Assembly (NCBI GenBank): GCA_013368315.1
Contig: JAACJM010000029.1
Location: 62,001 to 126,000 of the forward strand
DNA length: 64,000 nucleotides
Direction of reading: 5' to 3'
DNA from: Tetrapyrgos nigripes
Taxonomy: Eukaryota; Basidiomycota; Agaricomycetes; Agaricales; Campanellaceae
The notes under the pieces were generated by a model. The model had not been told where the DNA came from, did not search any database, and saw only the letters and a list, made by a program, of their open reading frames with translations. A program made the translations under genes and the position numbers. Positions 45,932 through 48,175 of the stretch are shown here, one piece after another; within the stretch, counting starts at the first letter, position 1; each line of letters begins with the position of its first letter.

Positions 45932-48175
45932 CTATGATTTGAAGGATCTTTTGCGAAGTTCATCACTAGTAAGGGCATCATATGTAGGGCAAAGCTGGTC
46001 CCATTGATCTGATGAAGTAAGTTTAGTTCAGATAATGACGAAGACGAGAAAACGACGGACGTACCGGTAGGAGTTATAGTCGAGTTCCAAGAGTCGGTAC
46101 CCTCTGCAAACACGATGGCAAGACCGCTACGTAGATTCAAACATTCAGGGGGACTCCATCGTAAGCAACGCAGGGAACTCACGCCTCGAGATGCCAGTCA
46201 ATGTGGCAGTGAAGGAACCAGGGACCAGCATTGTCCGTGGTGAACCTGATGGTGACGTTGTCCCCGGTAACACCGGTTGAGACAACATCTCTTCGTGGGG
46301 GATTGGCGTAGTTATACGTGCTACTTCCAGCGCTACGAACGACGTCGAAAGTGTGGCCGTGCACTATATCTACTCGTTAGCAAAAGAGGGGAGTATAAGA
46401 ACGCAGAAAAAAACTTGCACTAATTTCATTGTTAGCAAATGAATAGTAGAAACGAAAGAGAAAAATACACGAACGTGGAAGGGATGTGGCGCTCCTGCGA
46501 CACCACCGGGGATAGAAATTTCAACGGTGGAATTAAGGGGCAGAGAATAGAGGGATCCAGAGGGAAGAAGACTGTCGGCGGTTTGAGCCCCAGAAAGAAT
46601 TTGCAGTAATACTGGGACTGTGGGAGGAACGAAGGATACGTCGTTGATTTGGAAAGTTCCAGTCTGTCGAAAAAGTCAGATACAGCTCGAGGAAAAAATA
46701 CACAGATTGGAAGCACGAAAGAGGCTGTAAGTCACGTAGTGACTATACGTGGTGATACCCTCATATGCTAACTGTGACATCCACTTACAAAGGTCAAATC
46801 CAAGTTGAGGGCAACATCTACTCCTCCGACCTCTGGATCTCCTGGTGCACCGGGATTCTCCAAGGGGACCAAGTCTTCTTCCACCAGAGCATTGGTAGCG
46901 GTTACCTCTGGAGTTCCAGGTTCAGAGTCTTCGTCGGCATCGACGTACCGAAGGATCGCAGAGTTGATTCCGCCACTAAAGCCAGTGGTTCCGGTGCTCG
47001 GATTTGCGCGAATCCAGTAGTTGTCCGTGGCTTGGTCGGCGTTGAGCTAAAAGCATTCTTCAGATGTGGGAGCAAGAGATCTTTAAACGCCACTGCTTAC
47101 AATGACTGAATATCTCTGTCCTGCAAAAATTTGGATCTGGTCCACTTCGAGCTCCTCGTGGTTGACACCATCAACTTCAATGACGGTCATGGTGTGATTA
47201 TCGATGGAGAACACAAAATTGGGGTCGCAAGCAACGTTTATCAGACGGAACCTATACCTCTTTCCTTGCTCGACGGTGATGACAGCCAACTCCGTTGCAT
47301 TTCCACCATCAAAACGGCCAAGGCCGTTGATGAGCGTAGCATCAGAAGCACTAGTTGCAGTGGTCAGCAACTGACGATGAGTAGTAGTAGAGCGTTAAGA
47401 ACATACGGGAAAGTCAAAGTCTCGGCCTTGTCATGGTACCAGTCCGCGAGGGTGATAACTGTGGTTTCTGTGCGAAAGGAAGCGTGTCAGAGATAGCCCA
47501 AAATACTGGAAATAATCACTGACCGTCGTCAACATCATACGAATCAGCATAAGGGTCGTCAGGGTCATAAATGACCAAAGGACCACGAAGACCGTCGCAA
47601 TATTGAGTCGACAGGTGGGAATGGTACCAGAACGTGCCGGCTTGATCTGTTGCAAAGAAATTGTAGAGAAATTGGTTGCCAGAAGCTATAGGACACTGGT
47701 TGACGAAGGCAGGCCTACAAGGAAAAGTTAGTAGGAGCTATGGGACAGGGAGAAATCAAAGCAGACCCATCAGCCCATCCGGTTCCAGCTTGAAAGAGAC
47801 CGTGCCAGTGCTTAAGAAAACATATAGATAAGCGTCATCACAATCAATTTTTAAAAAAACGTACGACAGAAGTCGTCTTCAACATAGTATCGTCGTCAAG
47901 TTGATTAATGACATTGATTTGGAAGTTGTCACCCTGCGTATGAATTCAGCTTGGGATCACCAAAAGGATAATAAAAACTTCATCACCTTATTACCGACAA
48001 TCAATGGGCCAATCACCGACGAAGTTGAACCAGCCAGGGTTGCAGTACGACTGAATCCATCTGGAGAGACTTCAGCGTTGGAAATAGTAAGGTCCGTCAC
48101 TGGACCAATCGTCTCAGCGAACGAAGAGGATGCGAGTGCGAGAAGAAGGAGGGGTTTGAAAGAACGGAGCGACAT
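45932..48175 (-). CDS. Laccase (multicopper oxidase, benzenediol:oxygen oxidoreductase)
   Basis: Exons in transcription order: 48175-47987, 47933-47865, 47810-47767, 47714-47524, 47467-47407, 47350-47101, 47046-46789, 46663-46475, 46419 (1 nt), 46363-46183, 46126-46065, 46008-45932. With the 1-nt exon the chain is in phase throughout and gives 523 residues, a normal laccase length. Signal peptide MSLRSFKPLLLLALASSSFA. All four copper signatures are present: L1 HWHGLFQAG, L2 FWYHSHLSTQYCDGLRG, L3 HPFHLHGH, L4 HCHIDWHLEAGLAIVF. Leu is at the axial T1 position, which in characterised laccases goes with intermediate redox potential. An alternative upstream ATG (48187) would add MSRK; I chose 48175 because it gives a typical signal peptide. 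Extracellular oxidation of phenols, lignin decay or pigment formation are usual roles. Confidence 0.95.

Follow-up and report, generated by a model that had tools for sequence, protein, structure and literature searches.

How does a laccase gene complete a conserved copper motif when the DNA between the two halves of that motif cannot be removed in one piece without shifting the reading frame? The question is raised by a multicopper oxidase gene of 12 exons on the minus strand of the Tetrapyrgos nigripes window (the whole 64,000-nucleotide stretch analysed here), at positions 45932..48175, in a species placed in Campanellaceae, Marasmiineae. Within this gene, CCCTTCCAC and TGCACGGCCAC are separated by exactly 111 nt (46474-46364, minus strand), which equals 55 + T + 55, and taking out all 111 nt produces a frameshift with a stop after 494 codons, in agreement with an earlier note on this DNA, which had divided the stretch in the same way and held that its complete removal breaks the frame. 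The same note had proposed a single-base exon that completes HPFHLHGH, followed by a GC-AG intron, within a coding sequence of 1572 nt; as statements about the sequence these claims hold up, and they recur in three paralogues. We find it very likely, judging from the sequence, that a 1-nt exon, T, lies between two spliceosomal introns of this laccase.

Layout of the copper-motif site and its laccase

We observe that the upstream exon of 189 nt (46475..46663, minus strand) ends in CAT CCC TTC CAC, coding for HPFH, and is followed by a phase-0 intron of 55 nt, here called 8a (46420..46474, minus strand), which runs from GTTCGT through TTTGCTAAC to AATTAG. The predicted exon is the single T at 46419..46419 (minus strand), which would be base 1 of the TTG codon for the Leu of HPFHLHGH, and it is followed by a phase-1 GC-AG intron of 55 nt, here called 8b (46364..46418, minus strand), running from GCAAGT through TTTTGCTAAC to ATATAG. 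The downstream exon of 181 nt (46183..46363, minus strand) starts with TG CAC GGC CAC, which codes for (L)HGH. With both introns out, the message reads CAC TTG CAC GGC CAC, and when all 11 introns are spliced out of the gene (48175 to 45932, minus strand), the two-intron reading gives a CDS of 1572 nt and a laccase of 523 aa with HPFHLHGH.

The two-intron laccase has three Pfam Cu-oxidase domains, and in a PDB search 108 distinct sequences match it, the top match being a laccase; HPFHLHGH is the motif in the single PDB laccase alignment displayed. The motifs of basidiomycete laccases, which are three-domain multicopper oxidases, namely HWHG, HSH, HPxHLHGH and HCHxxxH, are present in all three copies of the gene. 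The public T. nigripes protein D9758_010968 is the laccase of the window, with 100% identity by local alignment, and differs from the two-intron reading in having an inserted Val and an N-terminus that is five residues longer (ATG at 48190). This public model (P0001; window 48190-45932) carries HPFHVLHGH, and its Val is probably an annotation artefact. The annotation error would be a concrete one, since a probably spurious Val in the catalytic copper motif would mislead enzyme work on the laccase. Approximately 1 kb upstream of the laccase start, we also observe 30-nt inverted repeats (window 49176-49372) that are 97% complementary with 137 nt between them, and which look like a small MITE-like element.

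Upon searching the 98.5-Mb genome, CCCTTCCACGTTCGT is found three times: in the window copy (L034), in L035, located 77 kb away on the same contig, and in L036 on another contig. Intron 8a is present in L034-L036, the lengths of the double intron being 55/55, 55/56 and 52/55, and the same T is kept in 3/3 copies. Pairwise dS values among the three copies are 0.05, 0.27 and 0.28, and the dN/dS values of 0.032, 0.103 and 0.101 indicate purifying selection on reading frames that are complete. Because the three copies agree despite dS of up to 0.28 and different intron lengths, a sequencing slip is unlikely and the genes are probably working, with the qualification that the copies are kin and that their agreement does not amount to three independent proofs. 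Intron 7 (window 46788-46664) measures 125-145 nt in L034-L036 versus 57-65 nt for its counterpart in L038-L041, and is a second intron of the double-intron clade that is roughly doubled in length.

We enumerated the ways of splicing the site with a single GT/GC-AG intron or a pair of them, setting the minimum intron length to 40 nt, which gave 57, 43 and 63 combinations in the three copies, with 12, 6 and 17 of them staying open and in frame. HPFHxHGH is obtained from exactly one combination per copy, in 3/3 copies, and this is the pair of introns around T; none of the enumerated combinations is a single intron that leaves no extra residue. Additionally, TAG-T-GCAAGT, with an AG before the base and a usable donor after it, is found in 3/3 copies, as are the GCAAGT donor and the AG acceptor of a GC-AG intron, and among the combinations tried the T is needed for both the frame and the conserved motif. 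A junction like that of the site arose in 5/20,000 dinucleotide shuffles of the site when we required a branch box, an AG, one base, a donor scoring at least as high as GCAAGT with +2 ignored, and at least 45 nt in both introns, and in 617/20,000 when any GT/GC donor was allowed. A pattern built from this very site, GCTAAC-N6..16-TAG-N-GYAAGT, has 4 matches across the 98-Mb genome, 3 of which are the three gene copies, and the reversed-pattern control has 2. Across the three copies, the junction block formed by TTTGCTAACAATGAAATTAG, T and GCAAGTTTTTT varies in 1/32 columns versus 19/80 in the rest of the introns (Fisher p 0.012, for a block picked after looking), and a test of the longest invariant run at the junction in these copies was not significant (1080/20,000).

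Rival readings and the course of splicing

Donor strengths were compared with a set of laccase introns. We read 96 introns in ten genes and left out the three at the site as well as five that were doubtful (four in L042 and one in L052), resulting in 88 introns; this set holds no GC-AG intron, with three of the five dropped doubtful introns beginning with GC. In total, 85/88 of these introns are 44-77 nt long and 82/88 have a G at +5. The GTTCGT donor of 8a lies at the 21st percentile of the 43 distinct laccase donors, which is below average, and the GCAAGT donor of 8b at the 72nd percentile with +2 left out and at the 7th with +2 counted. After removal of 8a, which places ACT before the donor, the score of GCAAGT without +2 rises from 7.0 to 8.5 (91st percentile).

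The serious rival at the site is a reading that the earlier note overlooked. That note supposed that one ordinary intron would require a missing base, whereas a donor GTGTAT located 4 nt downstream gives an in-frame, phase-1 intron of 107 nt (46364..46470, minus strand; TTC/GTGTAT to ATATAG) that works without one, at the cost of an extra Val in HPFHVLHGH, and that would make the inner junction chance or a relic. This single intron is the public model, is also chosen in all three copies by a spliced aligner with ordinary gap and intron costs, and shares its phase and acceptor with the one-intron paralogues; its length is possible as well, with introns of 125-145 nt occurring in these genes. 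Its donor, however, lacks the +5 G and ranks among the weakest laccase donors (2nd percentile of the 43 distinct ones; 0 in L035), and the Val splits the H-x-H pair and is absent from the other 119 of the best 120 of 4226 homologues matched. HPxHLHGH is found in 115 of these best 120 of 4226, and among the five that do not have it only the public model has a residue added between HPxH and LHGH. The two His flanking the Leu are ligands of the type 2 and type 3 coppers, and a residue inserted at this point should be harmful to the site. Pfam Cu-oxidase_2 scores 132.2 bits for the public model versus 141.0 with the 1-nt exon. The 107-nt intron furthermore leaves unexplained the full branch-acceptor-N-donor junction inside it, at 5/20,000 shuffles, and we regard it as quite unlikely. 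Separately, two public laccase models, P0045 (Moniliophthora roreri) and P0058 (Paramarasmius palmivorus), lack the residues around HPxHLHG (GLLGLE-HTF), and a small exon may have been missed there at the same place in the gene.

A reading that is compatible with the 1-nt exon is that both products are made, the message with the exon giving active laccase and T skipping or use of GTGTAT giving inactive forms, such that output would be tuned. In each of the three copies, skipping of the T results in a frameshift that ends the protein after 494 codons, with the final copper motif, HCHIDWH, replaced; speculatively, such skipping could lower laccase output if it were common. Minor mis-splicing is nonetheless expected at any such site and does not require regulation, and we consider regulated output unlikely. 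An error of sequencing or assembly, or a decayed gene, would mean that a base is missing and that one ordinary intron would otherwise suffice. The one-intron copies do have a pyrimidine before the donor (CACT/GT, CATC/GT and similar), and a paper using the T. nigripes genome mentions potential alleles, removed there from the gene sets (PMC7368018), so that assembly copies need not all be separate loci. Yet copies that are 77 kb apart and on another contig, with dS of up to 0.28 and differing intron lengths, all agree, and complete reading frames under purifying selection in three copies argue against decay. Given the distances, the three copies are not taken as alleles of one locus; a sequencing slip was rejected because of their agreement, and a missing base or a decayed gene appears extremely improbable.

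The label stwintron-like, used in the earlier note, does not fit the site. A true stwintron would have one intron nested in the splice signal of the other with no exon between, and short neighbouring introns in a fungal gene would suit it, but 8a and 8b each come with a full set of donor, branch box and acceptor, and the intervening base is required in the message. We rejected this candidate, which retains hardly any probability, since neither intron interrupts the splice signal of the other (nesting being judged by eye) and a coding base lies between them. An introner-like element was also rejected: in a search that passes over simple repeats and very common words, the 168-nt site matches just the three laccase copies in its own genome, at E up to 10, and because the site is found nowhere else in the genome, no spreading intron family is indicated.

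Under the reading with a 1-nt exon, the pre-mRNA would carry a pair of short spliceosomal introns, each recognized by intron definition, that directly adjoin the T on either side. We infer the splicing of 8a and 8b, its order and the mechanism of their doubling as follows. Removal would be sequential, because one base cannot hold both the 3' and the 5' splice-site complexes, and either order would yield the same mRNA, CAC-T-TG-CAC, coding for H-L-H and restoring HPFHLHGH. If 8a were out first, the intermediate CACT/GCAAGT...TAG/TGCAC would have the arrangement of the one-intron paralogues, and if 8b were out first, an ordinary phase-0 intron, CAC/GTTCGT...TAG/TTGCAC, would be left. The junction read expected is CCCTTCCACTTGCACGGCCAC under the 1-nt exon, CCCTTCCACGTTCTGCACGGCCAC under the public model and CCCTTCCACTGCACGG if the T is skipped.

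The site in other laccases and the origin of the double intron

We fetched 35 laccase-like loci from the genome (20, then 15), and the site is readable by the pattern HPxH..HGH in 18 of them (10 + 8), the 17 unreadable by this pattern including five (L044-L048) with a different layout. Among the 15 readable sites other than the three double ones, 9 have one phase-1 intron, 6 have no intron and 0 have a phase-0 intron, and a phase-0 intron alone is likewise found at none of the 18 readable sites. The single intron, in L037-L042, L052, L072 and L075, follows base 1 of the Leu codon (CAC T^TG, or CAT C^TA in L037), and this is the position of intron 8b. The more distant L062-L067 code for HPFHLHGH without an intron and serve as a length standard. 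The earlier note expected a single intron in phase 0, and the genome contradicts this, with phase 1 in 9/9 other laccases that have an intron at a readable site. Because the intron of the other copies is in phase 1 (9/9), the GC-AG intron occupies the usual place, and the GTTCGT intron 8a, which sits one base upstream of the phase-1 place, is the newcomer or shifted copy.

Upon building a protein tree of 24 rows, before L061-L075 were fetched, we observed one clade (100/99) comprising the double-intron genes and a second (98/99) comprising L037-L042, with 11/20 inner branches open, the joining point of the three-copy clade included. In L044-L048, a second laccase subfamily, the copper motif is split by two introns around a 13-nt exon coding for HLHG (by eye). 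Additionally, the close laccase copy L043 (G000:C53:320800-323900) stops after PLNSTVE and continues with other sequence, and looks like a truncated copy.

A single phase-1 intron would have given rise to the double layout in one event that preceded the divergence of the three copies, most likely by a doubling that left base 1 of the Leu codon between the introns. By mean alignment score, 8a and 8b are the most alike of the 45 position pairs in the three genes. Among ten positions, the best match of each is the site intron of the sisters L038-L041, at 13.5 versus 0.7 for the next position with 8a and 19.2 versus 4.4 with 8b, which suggests common descent from one site intron. The tandem duplication proposed in the earlier note thus receives moderate support: the sister matches and the rank of the pair speak for it, whereas the direct likeness of the two introns need not exceed what T-richness and a shared branch box provide, because 1368/2000 shuffles with the donor, branch box and acceptor fixed in place score as high as the 8a-8b pair. 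In shuffles of the same kind, the score of 8a against the sister site intron is reached in 30/2000. Intron 10, for which there is no reason to expect kinship, also matches the sister site intron best (12.2, near the 13.5 of 8a), and as a control, the best match is the corresponding sister position for just 3/8 of the remaining short introns in these genes. The 8a-8b likeness is also weaker in L035 and L036 than in L034, with as many as 6 and 4 of the 83 other introns, respectively, scoring at least as high. From these alignments, an intron doubling at the site is likely.

Two paths to doubling can be drawn, and the data fit both without choosing between them. In one, a tandem duplication of the intron together with the T would give CACT-i-T-i-TG, which is one base too long, and loss of the first T would restore the frame; in the other, the intron would be copied back one base upstream of itself, keeping the frame at once. 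We tentatively propose, at rather less than even probability, that the double intron represents 1-nt intron sliding at a live intermediate stage, with the T caught between the copies of a doubled phase-1 intron. If this is true, once the GC-AG copy downstream was lost, the intron that remained would be in phase 0 and one nucleotide upstream, with the protein unchanged, and intron sliding would have a route that does not pass through a stwintron.

Comparison with known systems

A one-nucleotide intron shift via alternatively spliced stwintrons has reportedly been described by Fekete et al. (2017). As in that case, two introns lie one nucleotide apart in the laccase and losing either could leave different phases; unlike it, the double state of the laccase has a 1-nt exon, and no laccase with the phase-0 intron only is present among the 18 readable sites. 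The stwintron literature describes two adjoining short introns in fungal genes that are removed sequentially and are hard for gene callers, as at the laccase site, with the difference that in a stwintron one intron lies across a splice signal of its partner, leaving no exon between the two (PMC5639578, PMC8469720). Novel intron positions through sliding or duplication are the subject of work in Drosophila (PMC2891723) and intron sliding itself is under debate (PMC7730772), and it is because of this work and this debate that the double state is interesting as a possible sliding intermediate.

Within open-access full text, we found no basidiomycete 1-nt exon in the passages available, and the nuclear families described there are APC11, VPS55 and CYP621A. 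In a survey of Phanerochaete P450 genes with microexons, the shortest exon is 6 bp (PMC1184071), and a literature search combining laccase and microexon returned no laccase case, the one match being a paper on a Trichoderma transcription factor. 1-nt exons are RNA-proven in plant APC11 (PMC4674806) and VPS55 (PMC8831610). As in the laccase, these are coding exons between two spliceosomal introns that are essential to the frame and missed by annotation, and sequential intron removal has been proposed for APC11 too (PMC4674806). In these sources, the exons of APC11 and VPS55 are conserved across land plants and RNA-proven, whereas the laccase exon is a prediction, and the laccase differs further in having one GC-AG intron and single-intron paralogues in the same genome.

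The closest fungal parallel is provided by the CYP621A P450s of Fusarium, whose 1-nt exon is termed by its authors the first in a fungal gene (PMC12940212). As described there, the exon likewise completes a conserved motif, was first inferred from frame and motif, and was recognized with an intronless relative as the length standard and an intron about twice the usual length. In contrast to the laccase, CYP621A is an ascomycete P450 in which the exon is the G of AGGGT and for which SRA reads exist, and its authors suggest base loss and a cryptic exon as the origin, whereas the laccase intron appears doubled (PMC12940212). The laccase T is therefore, on what these sources contain, very likely a further case of a 1-nt exon beside APC11, VPS55 and CYP621A, and one whose origin can be read and tested, because the same genome retains paralogues with a single intron or none at the site.
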